A stretch of 64,000 nucleotides of DNA from the NCBI GenBank assembly GCA_019637915.1, contig JAHBUV010000001.1, positions 1,024,565 to 1,088,564 of the forward strand. The letters are read 5' to 3'. This document shows positions 26,875 through 32,668 of the stretch, in pieces. Each line of letters opens with the position of its first letter. The first letter of the stretch is position 1. The notes under the pieces were generated by a model, which saw nothing but the letters and a program-made list of their open reading frames with translations, was not told the DNA's origin and did no database searches. A program made the translations under genes and the position numbers. The stretch comes from Pseudobdellovibrionaceae bacterium (lineage in GTDB: Bacteria > Bdellovibrionota > Bdellovibrionia > Bdellovibrionales > Bdellovibrionaceae).

Positions 26875-27062
26875 CTTCAGGCGTTTCGCGCGGGACCGCG
26901 GCACGGCGCCCGGCCCAAGGCTTTATGTTACATGCCGTTTGTTCGGTCCGTCCTTTTTGTCCCCGCGCTCTTTTCTTCAAACGTCCGGACGCGATCAAAT
27001 CACGAATTGCCGCTGTCGGAATTTTCTTTCGACAATGGAGACCTCAACCAAGGAGGTTTTCC

Positions 27063-27788
27063 ATGTTGCGATCACTGTTTCTTTTCACGGCCCTGACGAT
27101 GACCGCGGGATTTTCGTCCGCGATGCCCAACGAGGACGAAGCGAAGTTCCTGCGCCGGGACGCCACCCCCGAGCAAACCACCGCCTACGCCAAAGAAAAA
27201 TCCATCGAGGCGACGAACGCCTTCGAGGACTTCATCCGCCTCGAGGAGGAGTCCATCCCGAACTCCATGCTCAAGAACGCCAAGTGCGTGGCCGTCATCC
27301 CGGACCTGTGGAAGGCCGGGCTCATCGTCGGCGCGCAAGCCGGCACGGGCCTCGTCTCCTGCCGCACGGACGCGGGATGGTCGCAACCGGCCTTCTTCGA
27401 CGTCGGCGGCCTGTCCATCGGCCTGCAGGCCGGCATTCAGAAAGTCGACCTCGTCATGGTCTTCACTCACCGCGATGCCGTGAAAAAACTGACGAAACCG
27501 CAGTTCACCCTGGGCGGCGAAGCTTCGGCGTCGATCGGGCCCGTCGGTCGTTACCTCGAAGCCGGCACGGACTACAAACTGGACAGCGAGGTCTACACCT
27601 ACTCCAAAGCCAAAGGCTTCTACCTGGGGCTGAACCTGCAAGGAATGAAGGTGCTCGCCAATAAAAAGATCAACGGCAACGTGCACAGCACCCGCACGGT
27701 GTCCGAGATCCTGGGCAACGCCGGGGTTTCCTCGATGAGTGAACTCGACGGGTTTGTTTCGACTTTGAACAAGTACGCGGAGAAATAA
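27063..27788 (+). CDS. SYLF (Ysc84-like) domain protein, exported
   Basis: A 241-residue protein with a signal peptide (MLRSLFLFTALTMTAGFSSA) and a SYLF/Ysc84-type lipid-binding domain. Supporting segments are IPNSMLKNAKCVAVIPDLWK, AGLIVGAQAGTGLVSCR, WSQPAFFDVGGLSIGLQAG, VDLVMVFTHRDAVKKL, FTLGGEASASIGPVGR and YSKAKGFYLGLNLQG. The family binds phosphoinositides in eukaryotes, and its bacterial role is poorly defined; a periplasmic or envelope function is inferred. A perfect AAGGAGG ribosome-binding site precedes the ATG. It is monocistronic between two terminators. Confidence 0.9.
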   Translation: MLRSLFLFTALTMTAGFSSAMPNEDEAKFLRRDATPEQTTAYAKEKSIEATNAFEDFIRLEEESIPNSMLKNAKCVAVIPDLWKAGLIVGAQAGTGLVSCRTDAGWSQPAFFDVGGLSIGLQAGIQKVDLVMVFTHRDAVKKLTKPQFTLGGEASASIGPVGRYLEAGTDYKLDSEVYTYSKAKGFYLGLNLQGMKVLANKKINGNVHSTRTVSEILGNAGVSSMSELDGFVSTLNKYAEK

Positions 27789-27877: not shown

Positions 27878-27899
27878 GCCGCGGGAAGAGGACGGGTGC

Positions 27900-28057
27900 T
27901 CAGGGAGCGGAGCGGGGCCGGGGGGCGGCAGGCACGCCTTCTGTTTTGAAGGACACGGCCTTCCTGGCCTCTGCCGCGGGGATTCCCGTCGTGGCCGCGG
28001 AGGTCCTTCAAAACAGAAGGCGTGCCTGCCGCCCCCCGGCCCCGCTCCACTCCCTGA
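27900..28057. repeat. Long inverted repeat: 55-bp arms around a 48-base spacer
   Basis: Arms at 27900-27954 and 28003-28057 are reverse complements over 55 positions with a single mismatch, which implies recent origin or active maintenance. The arms are very GC-rich at their outer part and contain the segment GCAGGCACGCCTTCTGTTTT. The spacer has no gene. Together with the preceding terminator it fills the 348-base gap before the next gene. No transposase is adjacent. It could be a non-autonomous mobile element, an extragenic palindrome or a cruciform-forming site. Confidence 0.85.
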
Positions 28058-28136
28058 ACAACACTCTGAGAATGAGGCTTTTTTGGGGGGAATTTTGTTT
28101 CGGTGATCCAATGAATGACAGTTAACGCGATTCGAC

Positions 28137-29480
28137 ATGTTGGAGATGTTGCGCTCTTTGGCTTGCCGCGTTTTGATGGAGGGCATGAAGGCTCTCCTCG
28201 GACTCGTTGTTTTGTTGTTTGGCATGCAGGCCTCCGCCCAGGTTTGGAATGACCGGCGTTCTTGGGACGACGGATGGGAACAAAAGTATCAAGAATGGGT
28301 CCGGGATCATTGGCAGAAGGATTTCTTTTCTCGGCGGATCCGACCTGACGGGACGGTGAATCCCTACTATGGGTTGCGCCTGGACTGCGCGGATGTCGTC
28401 TATTCGATGCGCGCCATCTTCGCTTATGAGAACGAACTGCCCTTTGAGATCAGCGATCCGACGGGGGGAAAGAAAACGATCACGAACCGCATGAGCCGCT
28501 TCAATGGCGTCGGGTTCGAGTCGCGCATCCGCCCCTTCCTTGCCTTTCTGTACGGGGTCGTCGCCACCAAGACTTTGCCGAATGACACTTTTCCGGTCGC
28601 GATTTCTCCGGAATGGATCAAGCCCGGAACCCTGATCCTGACGACGAAAACGAATCACCACAGCTGGTCGGTGAAAGAGATCCTGCCGATCGGCGTGCCC
28701 TGGCTCGTCTACAATTCCCGCGTCAGCGCCACCAGCAGCCTCGTCCTGCAGGAACGCCAGTCATGGCCGAATCCGTTCTGGGTGTTCGAGAAAGACCATT
28801 CGCCCTCCGGGAATGCCGGCTTTCGCGTCTTTCGGCCCGCCTCCGCCCTGGGCAAACCCGTTTGGGAAGTGCCGGGCTACTCGGAAGAGCAGTACCGCGT
28901 GCCCCTCAACAAATGGGTGAAATTCGCCACCGCCCGCCTGGCCCAGCGGCAGGAAAGCCACGAGCAGCAATTGCGCCGCCTGCTGAATGCCTCCTGCGAG
29001 GGGCTCCAGGGACGCGTCGAAGCGGTGCGGGACGGGGTGCTGTATCTCGCCCGCAACCGCCGCTGCATGAATTACGACACCTACGACAACTACTCGACGC
29101 CGAACCGCGACCAGCGTTTCTTCGATGATCTGGTGGCCTTGCGGGCGGCCTACGCGGACGCCTTGGTTTCGCGGGCCTCTTTGAACGCGGACCTGCAGAA
29201 ATCCCTGGAGAAGATCTTTCCCTTCATCGAACGCAACCTGCGGCAGGAAGCCTCGGCCATGCGGCCGCAATCGATTGACGGGAACTCGCAGTGCGCGATC
29301 ACTTACGCCTCCGGGCGCAGCATCGATCTCGCCGAAGCCAAACGGCGTTTGTTCGCCGGCCTGATGTCCAACAATCCCCACGACGACCTGGAGTACCGCT
29401 GGGGCGAAAAGCGCGGGCCATCGCCCCTGGGACGCATGTGCCGCTCCTGGGATCTTTGGACCCCGAACCTGAACCAATAG
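28137..29480 (+). CDS. Exported protein with possible papain-like Cys/His pair, unknown
   Basis: A protein of up to 447 residues with a hydrophobic export signal. The start is uncertain: ATG codons at 28137, 28146, 28176 and 28185 are all possible, and the last gives the most compact signal peptide (MKALLGLVVLLFGMQASAQ). I do not recognise the family. A segment LDCADVVYSMRAIFAYE resembles the Cys helix of NlpC/P60 and transglutaminase-like enzymes, and about 95 residues later TNHHSWSVKEI could supply the His. A cysteine peptidase or amidase is therefore a guess. The C-terminal half is helical with several Cys residues. The next gene follows after seven bases. Confidence 0.6.
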   Translation: MLEMLRSLACRVLMEGMKALLGLVVLLFGMQASAQVWNDRRSWDDGWEQKYQEWVRDHWQKDFFSRRIRPDGTVNPYYGLRLDCADVVYSMRAIFAYENELPFEISDPTGGKKTITNRMSRFNGVGFESRIRPFLAFLYGVVATKTLPNDTFPVAISPEWIKPGTLILTTKTNHHSWSVKEILPIGVPWLVYNSRVSATSSLVLQERQSWPNPFWVFEKDHSPSGNAGFRVFRPASALGKPVWEVPGYSEEQYRVPLNKWVKFATARLAQRQESHEQQLRRLLNASCEGLQGRVEAVRDGVLYLARNRRCMNYDTYDNYSTPNRDQRFFDDLVALRAAYADALVSRASLNADLQKSLEKIFPFIERNLRQEASAMRPQSIDGNSQCAITYASGRSIDLAEAKRRLFAGLMSNNPHDDLEYRWGEKRGPSPLGRMCRSWDLWTPNLNQ

Positions 29481-29487
29481 AGGAGAT

Positions 29488-30186
29488 ATGGACCGAAAAA
29501 CCTGGCTTGTTTCCGTTCTCGTCGCCATGGGCCTCGTGCTGGCCGCGGATTATTTTTTCCTGCACCTGCTGTTTCCGCTGAAAAAAGCCGCCCTGATGGA
29601 GGAAATGAACCGCGACGTGGAAGAGCATCTGCGGGAAAACCCCACGGAGCCCCCGCCAACCCCCGATAACGATCCGGAAGCGGCTCCCGCCCCGGAACCC
29701 GGCGCGAAGAATGAATCGTCCTTCCGGAAAAGCGTGCAGGAATGTTTCAAGGGTCAGGTGTCGGCCCGGGATCCCAAAGATCTTTTGCGGGGCCTGAAGC
29801 GCCAGGGCCTGGTGTTGAACGAAGTCACGGTCGAGAATTGGCACGTGCGGCGCCCGAACGGCCAGGAGGAGCGCATCATGGTGGTCGCCTCGGACCGCGA
29901 AAACGCCAACGGCCGCAAAGAGGTCCGCCTGTTCGGCGTCGATGACGAAGGCCTGCCCGTGCCGAAACCTTTGCCGGCGGCCAAAGCCTTTGACCCGAAA
30001 GAGGACTTCATCGCTGCTTTGAAAAAACCCGGTCGGCTGGTTTTCCACCAACGCCAGGAAAGCCACAACGGTCCCGAAGGGCTCAGCGCGTCCGTTGAGT
30101 GGGTGAACGAGGACGTCCGCGACCTGCAGGTTTTCCTGAAAGAGAAAACCCTGTCCTGCCGCGACAGCGACTGCCGCTGCCTTTAG
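29488..30186 (+). CDS. Membrane-anchored protein of unknown function
   Basis: A 232-residue protein with one N-terminal membrane helix (WLVSVLVAMGLVLAADYFFL), a charged helix, a Pro/Glu/Ala-rich linker (about 55-75) and a mixed alpha/beta C-terminal domain that ends with clustered cysteines (LSCRDSDCRCL). No family is recognised. It starts seven bases after the stop of the preceding exported protein, with GAGGAG as ribosome-binding site, so the two form an operon and may act together at the inner membrane. Its stop overlaps the convergent downstream gene by four bases. Confidence 0.6.
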   Translation: MDRKTWLVSVLVAMGLVLAADYFFLHLLFPLKKAALMEEMNRDVEEHLRENPTEPPPTPDNDPEAAPAPEPGAKNESSFRKSVQECFKGQVSARDPKDLLRGLKRQGLVLNEVTVENWHVRRPNGQEERIMVVASDRENANGRKEVRLFGVDDEGLPVPKPLPAAKAFDPKEDFIAALKKPGRLVFHQRQESHNGPEGLSASVEWVNEDVRDLQVFLKEKTLSCRDSDCRCL

Positions 30187-31313
30187 TTCATGGATTCGAG
30201 CTGGCGGAGGAATCCGCCCAGCAGGTCGCTGTCATTCAGACGCCGCTGGAATTGCCGCGATAAAGAACGGTGATCGAGATCGCGCACGGACACCGACAGC
30301 GAACGATCAAGGTCTTTCAGCACGTTTTTCCGCTTTTTCCTGGAAAATCCCGCGCGCTCCATCGCCTCCCCGAAAGCGATGTGCATTTCGGCGGCGTCCT
30401 TGAGGTTCCCCAGCTGCAGGATGATCTCATTCAGCATCGTGAAAGAACGCCACGGGATGAGGACCGGGTTCGCGATCGCGGGCGGCGAGAGCTTCATGTA
30501 CGGGTTCCGATAGATTTCCGGATTGGCCCTGGTCATTTCCTGAAGCCACGCGCGGGATCCGAAGGACAGCGCGTCCTCCTGGAAACGGATCAGACCGTCC
30601 AGGTTCATGGTCTGGATCGCCAGCCAGCGCAGTTCCCGGCGCAACTCGTGCAGTCCTTTTTCAATGTCCTTGCGGTCGTACTCGAGGTCGCGGATGCGCA
30701 CGCGCAACTTCGCCCCGTCATGCAGCAGCATGCCGCGCAGGAAACGACCGTCCTGGACCCCGTCCATCCACAGGGATTCTTTTGCCATGGACTGACGGAA
30801 TTGCCGGAGGGTCCCCGTGGAGTCGCTCCACCAGCCGCTGTCTTTCAGGGCGTTCACCGCGGCCGCTTGAGCCTGCTCCGCCTCTTCGCTGAAAATCCGG
30901 GCGAGCTTGTCTTCACCCAACTCCCGGGCCTTGTCGCGCAGGCCGCGTTTCAAGGCCAGGCGACCGAGGCGGTCCTCGACGTCTTTGAACTGGGAACGCC
31001 AGGCGCCGAAGAACTCCGGGTGGTGCGCGCGATAAACATCGGCCAAGCCCTGCAGACGGTAAAAAACGCGGCGGATGTTCTCGCCCATCAGCGCATCCAT
31101 TCGTTGATTTTCATCCAAGCGCCGGGTGCGCGCGAAAAATTCGCCGGCGCTTCGCAGCTCACGCTCAAAAAGCTGCCGCCCCCATGAAGCCCGCGCATCA
31201 AAGGCCGGCGCGGACGCCGCGGCCGCGGAAACGAACACCGCCTCGCAACGCAAAGCCTGAGCCTGGGCACTCGCGGCCAACAAAACCAAAAGGGGAACGG
31301 ACATCCAGCGCAT
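30183..31313 (-). CDS. Exported all-helical protein, unknown function
   Basis: A 376-residue protein with a signal peptide (MRWMSVPLLVLLAASAQAQA) and an almost entirely helical mature part rich in Arg, Glu and Leu. Segments such as HHPEFFGAWRSQFKDVEDRL and KKRKNVLKDLDRSLSVSV are notable. The fold recalls helical phosphate-binding bundles such as CHAD, but the typical His pattern is not clear, so I do not assign it. Convergent with the preceding operon, with a four-base stop overlap. It lies downstream of the nucleotidyltransferase gene on the same strand, 118 bases away. Confidence 0.6.
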   Translation of the reverse strand: MRWMSVPLLVLLAASAQAQALRCEAVFVSAAAASAPAFDARASWGRQLFERELRSAGEFFARTRRLDENQRMDALMGENIRRVFYRLQGLADVYRAHHPEFFGAWRSQFKDVEDRLGRLALKRGLRDKARELGEDKLARIFSEEAEQAQAAAVNALKDSGWWSDSTGTLRQFRQSMAKESLWMDGVQDGRFLRGMLLHDGAKLRVRIRDLEYDRKDIEKGLHELRRELRWLAIQTMNLDGLIRFQEDALSFGSRAWLQEMTRANPEIYRNPYMKLSPPAIANPVLIPWRSFTMLNEIILQLGNLKDAAEMHIAFGEAMERAGFSRKKRKNVLKDLDRSLSVSVRDLDHRSLSRQFQRRLNDSDLLGGFLRQLESMN

Positions 31314-31431: not shown

Positions 31432-32115
31432 TTATGAAGAGGCGGCCCGCATTCTTTCGAGGACGATCTCTCTGCGCGCGAAGCTGTTCTCACGCTCCGT
31501 CACGTGAGCCTCGACGGCGTCGGCAAATTCCGGGCGCGCGACCCAATCCCGCAAACAACCACGGATCCACTCGCCGGCCTCCGACGTCGATTCCCGCACT
31601 TCATTCCCCAAGAAGGGTCTGCCATCGAAAAGATTCACGATATCCTCGATGTCGTGACTCGTGAAAAAGTCACTCTGTCCCCTTCCCAGAAAGGCTTCCA
31701 TCTTCGTCGCCAACAGATACAACGCCGAGAAAATTTTAATTGTCCGGGCCTTGAGCGGAAACTCGATCTTGGCGTCGATTCCCGGCTTGTACCATCTGTT
31801 CGTGAACCCGTAGATATTGAAATCGTCGGGCATCACATCAAGAATCAATTCTCCGTTTCGAAAACGGCAGATGTTCTTTTCCTCGGGGCTTTCCTGAAAA
31901 CCCTTTTTCCGCAACAGAACGCGCAGCCTTTCGAGTTCCCCCATGTTCGCGACCTGCACGACGGTATCCACGTCCTCCGTCGGACGGATCGAGACGACCT
32001 GGGGCTCCGTCAAATGAAGTCCCACGGTGGCTCCTCCCAAAAAAACGAGCTGATCGGCCGCTTCCTCCAACTTGCCGACAATGGTCTCCAGAAGAAGGCG
32101 TCCCGGGTCACTCAT
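31432..32115 (-). CDS. AbiEii-like nucleotidyltransferase, possible type IV toxin
   Basis: A 227-residue protein of the DNA polymerase beta-like nucleotidyltransferase superfamily. The signature is FLGGATVGLHL (residues 25-35) followed by RPTEDVDTVV with catalytic-type Asp48 and Asp50, and a third acidic site in ELILDVMPDD. The Lys-containing LLATKMEAFLGRG segment followed by HDIEDIVNLFDG is typical of AbiEii/AbiGii-like toxins and MNT-type proteins. I chose ATG 32115, which overlaps the upstream regulator gene by eight bases; the frame continues upstream only as shadow. The pair looks like a toxin-antitoxin or phage-defence module. Composition here is AT-richer than the neighbours. Confidence 0.8.
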   Translation of the reverse strand: MSDPGRLLLETIVGKLEEAADQLVFLGGATVGLHLTEPQVVSIRPTEDVDTVVQVANMGELERLRVLLRKKGFQESPEEKNICRFRNGELILDVMPDDFNIYGFTNRWYKPGIDAKIEFPLKARTIKIFSALYLLATKMEAFLGRGQSDFFTSHDIEDIVNLFDGRPFLGNEVRESTSEAGEWIRGCLRDWVARPEFADAVEAHVTERENSFARREIVLERMRAASS

Positions 32116-32668
32116 TCGAGGCCAATTTTTCCTGAAGCTTTTGAATCGCGGCTTGGCTTTCCCGCGCCCGTCCCACACGAATCATGTCGATCAGGGAGAG
32201 AAGTTCGTAAAGATCCGGATCTTTTTTCGCGGCGGCGGGCACGGAGTCGTAAAGAGGCCGGAGGCTTTGGCCGCGCACCGACCCCTGGGGATCAGGCCAA
32301 ACGTAGTTTTCCAAAGAGCTATTCGCATCATGGTGAATGAATTTGAGCGAAGGATGAGAGTGCGCCGTCGGCATCCCGAGGGAAACAGGCCCGTAACTCG
32401 CGGGAAAAACATACTTCAAGCCGTACAAAAGGAATTCCAAAGCGGAACGCCGTTTCACGGCACGTTTTTCATCGATCAGATGGGAAGACTTCAATCGCCG
32501 CAAGGACTGACTGACTTCCGCCTGGCTCAAACCCAAAGAATCCGAAAGCTCTTTCTGGGACAGAACGGGCACGTCCGAAAGACGTTTGATCTGGGAAAGC
32601 GAGGGCGGACCCGACAGGAGCTTGAGCAGCAGCAAAACATCTTGTGCTTTCATAACCGGGCTTCTCAT
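32108..32668 (-). CDS. Winged-helix regulator, probable partner of the nucleotidyltransferase
   Basis: A 186-residue protein with an N-terminal helix-turn-helix (VLSQKELSDSLGLSQAEVSQ then LRRLKSSHLID, about residues 34-66) like a winged-helix DNA-binding domain. The C-terminal two thirds contain IHHDANSSLENYVWPDPQGSVRGQSL and a helical tail. Type IV AbiEi antitoxins also pair an N-terminal winged helix with a C-terminal domain, which fits the downstream AbiEii-like gene. The stop overlaps that gene's start by eight bases, so translation is coupled. An autoregulatory role is inferred from the palindrome upstream. ATG 32653 is an alternative start. Confidence 0.72.
   Translation of the reverse strand: MRSPVMKAQDVLLLLKLLSGPPSLSQIKRLSDVPVLSQKELSDSLGLSQAEVSQSLRRLKSSHLIDEKRAVKRRSALEFLLYGLKYVFPASYGPVSLGMPTAHSHPSLKFIHHDANSSLENYVWPDPQGSVRGQSLRPLYDSVPAAAKKDPDLYELLSLIDMIRVGRARESQAAIQKLQEKLASNE

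Follow-up and report, generated by a model that had tools for sequence, protein, structure and literature searches.

The locus

The window, a stretch of 64,000 nucleotides from contig JAHBUV010000001.1 of a Pseudobdellovibrionaceae bacterium (genome G000, 3.32 Mb in 14 contigs), carries a two-gene operon, P1–P2, which converges with a third gene, P3 (Table 1). P1 appears to encode a secreted cysteine enzyme with a papain-like fold and P2 a membrane-anchored partner of that enzyme. An earlier note on this DNA had described three genes for exported or anchored proteins, a four-base overlap of stop codons and a long inverted repeat beside them, and these were all found. The open reading frames (ORFs) lie where they had been placed, the stop codons of P2 (TAG) and P3 (TAA) share the bases TTAG at 30183–30186, and the repeat is present. 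Inspection showed signal-peptide-like stretches at the start of P1 and P3, from which export of P1 is predicted, and a single N-terminal hydrophobic helix in P2 (best 19-residue Kyte–Doolittle window 2.25 at residue 7). The segments DCADVV and NHHSWSV of P1 and the Cys-rich tail of P2, which ends CRDSDCRCL, were likewise seen. Since each of P1, P2 and P3 has homologues in other genera, the three ORFs are beyond chance. The start of P1 is ambiguous: the first start codon lies at 28137, and homologues favour 28185, which gives a protein of 431 residues. Cys84, His175 and Ser194 of the longer frame are C68, H159 and S178 of the shorter one, and the one-letter numbers used below for P1 count from 28185.

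Table 1. Features of the P1–P2–P3 locus, in window coordinates
Feature	Position	Strand	Remarks
Inverted repeat	27897..27954 and 28003..28060		arms of 58 nucleotides, 97% complementary, 48-nucleotide loop; just upstream of P1
P1	28137..29480	+	447-residue ORF; predicted cysteine enzyme, secreted, of papain-like (NlpC/P60-type) fold, followed by a helical C-terminal domain; start probably at 28185
P1 signal peptide MKALLGLVVLLFGMQASA	28185..28238	+	predicted by inspection and homologue alignment
Predicted catalytic Cys, C84 (C68)	28386..28388	+	first residue of helix 68–82; Cys in 76/76 rows
Predicted catalytic His, H175 (H159)	28659..28661	+	just before strand 160–166; His in 76/76 rows
Possible third active-site residue, Ser194 (S178)	28716..28718	+	57 Thr and 19 Ser in 76 rows
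C-terminal domain motif S-T-P-N-R-D, residues 304–309	29094..29111	+	S304, T305, R308 and D309 invariant in 76 rows
P1–P2 gap, AGGAGAT	29481..29487	+	7 nucleotides; read as a strong ribosome-binding site of P2; marks the operon
P2	29488..30186	+	232-residue ORF; putative membrane-anchored periplasmic partner
P2 C-terminal tail C224-x4-C229-x-C231	30157..30180	+	conserved with C86; all four Cys in 25/29 aligned rows
P3	30183..31313	-	376-residue ORF; exported CHAD-like protein (predicted); convergent, outside the operon
P3 CHAD-like signature E218..H222..R225,R226..R229 EKGLHELRRELR	30627..30662	-	invariant in 13/13 rows

Fold and active site of P1

The AlphaFold2 model of P1 (predicted local distance difference test score, pLDDT, 94.6; predicted template modelling score, pTM, 0.89) consists of a papain-like domain of the NlpC/P60 type and a helical C-terminal domain. 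As in the papain-like cluster, a Cys (C68) opens a helix and a His (H159) follows later at a strand, and both are kept in all 76 rows of an alignment of relatives (A2). The relatives came from a scan of GTDB representative genomes, which gave 106, of which 80 were kept. From these, 79 ORFs were taken (none from L137 and L139, two from L112); with L069, L113, L127 and L130 left out, 75 ORFs and the window P1 make up the alignment. In the cluster a third polar residue is expected on the strand that comes next, and position 178 falls just after strand 172–176 of the model. Among the invariant residues are D67-C68-A69-D70, Y73, R76, G148, H159, G170, R277, C294, D301, S304, T305, R308 and D309. 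The Cys/His pair suspected in the earlier note is thus seen in the fold model as well as in the relatives, and the suggestion escapes the refutation named for it, a predicted fold lacking a papain-like site together with an unconserved neighbourhood.

P1 contains exactly five cysteines, at 68, 271, 294, 370 and 419. The four non-catalytic ones are all kept in 73 of the 76 rows; two of the exceptions lose C271 and C370 together, and the third lacks C419 only. The paired loss in two rows suggests disulfides C271–C370 and C294–C419.

In a Foldseek search with the P1 model, the first row was a staphylococcal CHAP domain (E 0.41) and the second a protein titled as staphyloxanthin biosynthesis protein (E 1.1), which we take to be a CHAP domain too. 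A viral structure library gave nothing at E ≤ 0.001 for P1. VIA-align was run as a second look on 173 chains ranked by Foldseek. The best match was MagC of Pseudomonas aeruginosa (7bk8; Z 8.9, root-mean-square deviation 3.3, 143 aligned residues), followed by a putative endopeptidase (2hbw, Z 6.9), MepS (6.8), CwlO (6.7), a diffocin baseplate chain (6.6), RipD (6.3) and Tse1 (5.4). The alignments to MagC, 2hbw, MepS, CwlO, RipD and Tse1 (Z 8.9 to 5.2) cover model residues of about 25–224. Similarity to solved members of the papain-like cluster was thereby found, MagC alone lying above Z 8, and values below 8 may reflect merely a common arrangement. Because such values are ambiguous, the assignment rests on the agreement of fold class, Cys–His order, motif and remote sequence match. 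Taken together, these point very strongly to a papain-like NlpC/P60-type fold in the model, and the conservation in the alignment makes a catalytically active P1 probable. The C-terminal domain (256–408) aligned, in the VIA-align run with the whole P1 model, to generic helical bundles only, with Z up to 5.4.

Relationship to DUF4846

The remote sequence match is to the Pfam family DUF4846 (PF16138): 43 of the 76 aligned rows reach E ≤ 0.05 with it, and the best of them reaches 6.3e-7. When seven P1 homologues were scanned singly, three matched at 24.2–28.6 bits, one at 15.8 and three not at all, all four matches falling below the curated cut-off of 37 bits. The match spans about the Cys to His region in two of the homologues (L084, L087) and the later part only in two others (L081, L116). 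The window P1 has no DUF4846 match, and no protein above the DUF4846 cut-off was found in 59 related genomes, 240 genomes of the phylum or 14 controls. The earlier statement that none of the proteins belongs to a known family therefore holds at the Pfam and NCBIfam cut-offs and fails at greater distance, as the P1 family is remotely related to DUF4846 and that of P3 to CHAD. Pfam NlpC_P60 (PF00877) and CHAP (PF05257) gave no match to the window P1 at E ≤ 1, a longer homologue (L033) reached CHAP at E 0.046 only, and DUF1175 was absent from the Pfam results for the window P1 and for the members of the two P1 alignments, A1 and A2.

Ozhelvaci and Steczkiewicz placed DUF4846 among the papain-like families and suggested, from a retained GD motif, that it is an NlpC/P60-like cell-wall enzyme; they describe a contact between the Asp of this motif and an Arg of a later strand (PMC10318531). 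In our alignment the Gly is invariant (G164, 76/76), and the Asp (D165) stands in 43 rows. The later-strand position R214 is Arg in all 43 Asp rows and Arg (29) or Lys (4) in the 33 others, so that Arg occurs in 72 of 76. P1 differs from DUF4846 by its additional C-terminal domain, the invariant ST-x-x-RD motif and the four cysteines. With the NlpC/P60, CHAP and amidase members of the cluster (MepS, CwlO, Tse1 and staphylococcal CHAP) it shares the fold rows, the Cys–His order, the Gly of the GD motif and the later-strand Arg; unlike them it has Ser or Thr as third residue, an extra domain and no Pfam NlpC_P60 or CHAP match. In NlpC/P60 enzymes the third residue is usually His, Asn or Gln. Among the open-licence papers listed in the searches made, none describes the P1 family in its title or abstract opening, save for the sentence on DUF4846 in PMC10318531.

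Distribution of the P1 family and its partners

Matches to P1 were found in 33 of 59 genomes and 21 of 40 genera in the genome search, which included the window's own genome, and in a profile survey of the phylum in 94 of 230 sampled genomes (46 of 135 genera). The family is multi-copy, with up to nine matching stretches per genome, not all of them separate genes. Among the 80 relatives kept out of 106, names are mainly Bdellovibrio, Bdellovibrionaceae and Bacteriovoracaceae, together with Thiotrichaceae (Leucothrix, Cocleimonas), and those closest to the window P1 carry the name Bdellovibrio. The Thiotrichaceae are not known to be predators. The presence of the same family there argues for a general envelope function, expanded in the Bdellovibrionota; the role in predation that the earlier note had considered is hypothetical.

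Some matches sit in longer ORFs of about 550–620 or 950–1130 residues. Three of these (L029, L030 and L031, ORFs of about 950–1115 residues) seem by eye to repeat the C-terminal domain in a decayed form and then to continue into a further region. Another P1 homologue, in genome G036 (L146:6537-7733, - strand), lies within a run of exported-looking proteins.

Each of the 76 rows was labelled by the neighbour lying at most 1500 bases from its P1 homologue, with priority to P2, then to protein cluster 2, then to cluster 3, both clusters being defined by single linkage; a nearby contig end may conceal a partner. This gave the label P2 to 30 rows, cluster 2 to 19 and cluster 3 to 16, and left 11 with none of the three. 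The P1–P2 operon proposed in the earlier note thus recurs as a pairing. Of the 20 cluster-2 proteins 12 were scanned, and 11 of these reach the PG_binding_1 cut-off; 16 of the 20 conform to a loose lipobox pattern. Twelve of the 18 cluster-3 proteins were scanned: six exceed the DUF945 cut-off, two lie below it with E ≤ 0.001, and four have no match. In most cases the P1 of Thiotrichaceae has, instead of P2, a neighbour that is peptidoglycan-binding or DUF945-like. On a maximum-likelihood tree (quick method, with support from the Shimodaira–Hasegawa-like approximate likelihood ratio test, SH-aLRT, only), the partner labels need 10 changes against a mean of 39 for shuffled labels, in a tree where long branches blur the deep joins and near-copies inflate the clustering. 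The midpoint split leaves P2 in both halves of the tree, and in some Bacteriovoracaceae (L083, L097, L110) P2 is adjacent to P1 on the opposite strand.

The pair is therefore an old one, yet neither gene strictly requires the other, as P2 is kept in a genome with no P1 match (G004) and P1 is often found with no P2 nearby. In G004 the P2 gene (L147:6923-7603) stands at the same chromosomal site, flanked by genes read as histidine-degradation and 2-oxoglutarate dehydrogenase genes, and the ORFs flanking it suggest that P1 was lost or replaced there.

P2

The AlphaFold2 model of P2 (pLDDT 89.2, pTM 0.66) shows an N-terminal helix (3–50) and an alpha/beta domain (76–232). The protein has exactly four cysteines (86, 224, 229 and 231); in the 29-row alignment A3, three exceptions lose C229 and C231 together and one keeps only C224 in the aligned columns. 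P2 matches were obtained in 28 of the 59 genomes; within the taxonomic family, of which 66 genomes were covered, the 29-row profile found at least one in 59. No Pfam family is common to the members, nine families being matched by one of the 29 each. No clear fold match emerged from Foldseek, with nothing at E ≤ 0.001, or from VIA-align, where the best row was a LolB variant (Z 5.6 over 44 residues), followed by triphosphate-tunnel-like and Mediator rows at 5.2 or below. We consider it fairly likely that P2 is the direct partner of P1, and a tether or adaptor is rated somewhat above a cap.

A second P2-family gene lacking P1 was seen at L151:6819-7583 and at G000:C1:2240024-2240728; the former adjoins genes that we take to be 2-oxoglutarate oxygenase-like and TrmO-like.

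P3

P3 matches occur in 13 of the 59 genomes, the window's included, and alignment A4 comprises the window P3 and the 12 other sequences from this search. Eleven positions are invariant in all 13 rows and fall in two halves: R81, K110, G117, E218, H222, R225, R226, R229, G302, K305 and D306. This pattern of Arg, Lys, His and Asp resembles CHAD (PF05235), which two of the 13 rows match (L055, E 3.9e-5, 24.2 bits; L050, E 0.0048, 17.3 bits). In the genome search the protein of L055 (G005) scored 25.6 bits, equal to the CHAD cut-off. The window P3 itself has no CHAD match in Pfam. When A4 was aligned by hhalign with three CHAD proteins, the motifs were in register and the match was weak (probability 0.85 on a percent scale, E 0.065), so our estimate was lowered from likely to somewhat better than even that P3 is CHAD-like, judged from these sequence patterns. 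By analogy, P3 may bind polyphosphate or another polyanion: CHAD domains are reported as polyphosphate binders in proteins at polyphosphate granules (PMC6537752), a location with which the signal-peptide-like start of P3 contrasts.

In the 12 other genomes P3 lies on a different contig from the P1 and P2 matches listed, except in G013, where the contig with P3 also bears an ORF with a P1 domain, at a distance of about 80 kb; with many draft assemblies among the 12, contig ends may hide an adjacency. Three of them (G026, G044 and G052) have no P1 match, and the two P3 neighbourhoods inspected contained neither P1 nor P2. G013 also encodes a CHAD protein in an ordinary CHAD context (L162:1387-2136, - strand), next to what is presumably a polyphosphate kinase 2 gene.

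Proposed mechanism and alternatives

We propose, with a probability of about 0.5, that P1 is a secreted cysteine amidase or endopeptidase of peptidoglycan which is tethered or restrained by P2. The fold and the catalytic residues of P1 are well supported; we infer its substrate and the role of P2, with action on peptidoglycan as such rated at a little over even odds. After export, the NlpC/P60-type domain would cleave the peptide moiety of peptidoglycan at an amide bond, Cys84 being activated by His175 with a Ser or Thr (Ser194) as the likely third residue. The helical C-terminal domain, with its two predicted disulfides, would position P1 on its substrate or partner. Translated from the transcript that also encodes P1, P2 would be anchored to the inner membrane through the N-terminal helix, and the domain in the periplasm would bind P1, tether it and limit its site of action. 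P3 would be a separate exported CHAD-like protein. An analogous arrangement is found in Bdellovibrio bacteriovorus, where the gene of an enzyme, Bd3459, is followed by that of a periplasmic partner, Bd3460, described as the self-protection protein for the DD-endopeptidases Bd3459 and Bd0816 (PMC4686830). The enzyme class and the partner differ from P1–P2, and a protective role of P2 is hypothetical; by analogy, the Bd3459–Bd3460 pair shows that an enzyme gene with a periplasmic control gene is workable in B. bacteriovorus (PMC4686830).

Several observations weigh against this proposal. The window P1 has no convincing match in Pfam (best E 0.14), NCBIfam (0.1) or the PDB sequences (0.21), the A1 profile reached no better than E 0.099 against the PDB sequences, and Foldseek gave no match at E ≤ 0.001 for the model. 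Z values of 5–7 lie in a range that unrelated folds can reach, a designed helical protein attains 5.4 on the C-terminal domain, and the best structural match, MagC, is described as inactive (PMC10318531). The window P1 has Thr at the Asp position of the GD motif. The sole direct link to peptidoglycan is a neighbour in the Thiotrichaceae branch, not in the Bdellovibrionota, and several P1 copies per genome would allow other substrates. P2-family members occur apart from P1. In G001, the only other genome of the same genus (92% complete, 240 contigs), P1 is matched just at E 2.2e-4 in a 585-residue ORF and P2 solely by an 82-residue frame, and the operon is therefore not universal even within the genus.

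P2 could instead protect the producer in its own periplasm, as Bd3460 does, from a P1 that is aimed at the wall of another cell. The gene order, enzyme first as in bd3459–bd3460 (PMC4686830), agrees with this, as does the frequency of the P1 family in the Bdellovibrionota (94/230 genomes). Yet 46 of the 76 P1 rows have no P2 inside 1500 bases, some of them at contig ends; the P2 family is also found apart from P1, in nearly all genomes of the family (59/66) and in G004, and P2 has no ankyrin match in Pfam. We regard self-protection as unlikely. P1 might also be papain-like and act on something other than peptidoglycan, such as a surface protein or a lipid-linked amide, or carry out a transfer reaction, for example cross-linking. 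The papain-like superfamily does span protein, lipid and transfer enzymes (PMC10318531), and P1 is a multi-copy family with some homologues in ORFs of about 950–1130 residues. However, the nearest structural rows are peptidoglycan binders and hydrolases, and one P1 branch has a peptidoglycan-binding neighbour; a different target is, in our judgement, improbable.

That P1 is a peptidoglycan-binding protein devoid of catalysis, in the manner of MagC and RipD, seems much less probable still. The structural comparison ranks MagC, whose family we take to be DUF1175, first and also includes RipD, an entry titled non-catalytic. For DUF1175, a lack of activity and binding to peptidoglycan have been described (PMC10318531). 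MagC and P1 share the domain fold (143 aligned of 192 residues) and are both exported, and the MagC operon likewise includes a membrane protein gene (PMC5764988). Against this, the identity is 15%, the operon is a different one, and P1 keeps Cys and His where MagC is inactive (PMC10318531); a mere binder would not need both residues, which stand in 76/76 rows. The most doubtful alternative by far joins P1, P2 and P3 in one envelope system, as the earlier note had envisaged. The three genes are adjacent, all their products look exported or anchored, and the convergent stop codons overlap by four bases, but P3 is convergent, and in the 12 other genomes, three of them with no P1 match, it is not beside the P1 or P2 matches listed. 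The three-gene system was rejected on these two grounds, the orientation of P3 and its lack of linkage to P1 and P2 elsewhere.

Implications

Under the proposal of a P2-restrained peptidoglycan enzyme, the novelty would lie in the accessory domain and the partner of a papain-like envelope enzyme. If P1 is active, a multi-copy set of cysteine enzymes is left unnamed by Pfam and NCBIfam at the cut-offs used. The partner swap, with P2 in one case and a peptidoglycan-binding protein in the other, could serve as a natural experiment on the partner's role. Bdellovibrio must remake the walls of its prey and its own wall. A wider and rather speculative picture, which we hold to be less likely than the proposal itself, is an undescribed enzyme–partner system in which secreted cysteine amidases, expanded in the lineage and bearing a novel C-terminal domain, pair with a membrane-anchored, disulfide-bearing controller. 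Its copies would remodel predator and prey walls in predatory Bdellovibrionota, a sister branch in the Thiotrichaceae would have swapped the controller for a peptidoglycan-binding lipoprotein, and the exported CHAD-like P3 would lie next door. An exported CHAD-like domain, if true, would put binding of polyphosphate or another polyanion outside the cytoplasm, a surprising place given that the domain has been reported at polyphosphate granules (PMC6537752).

Other features of the locus

The inverted repeat upstream of P1 matched no place in the genome search other than itself. Farther upstream of the operon, 26925–27788 (+ strand) encodes a protein that looks exported and has a SYLF/Ysc84 domain (Pfam PF04366, E 5e-29). 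Beyond P3, two ORFs on the - strand (31432–32178 and 32108–32668) look by eye like a nucleotidyltransferase-like protein and a helix-turn-helix protein, presumably as in toxin–antitoxin pairs of the AbiE type.

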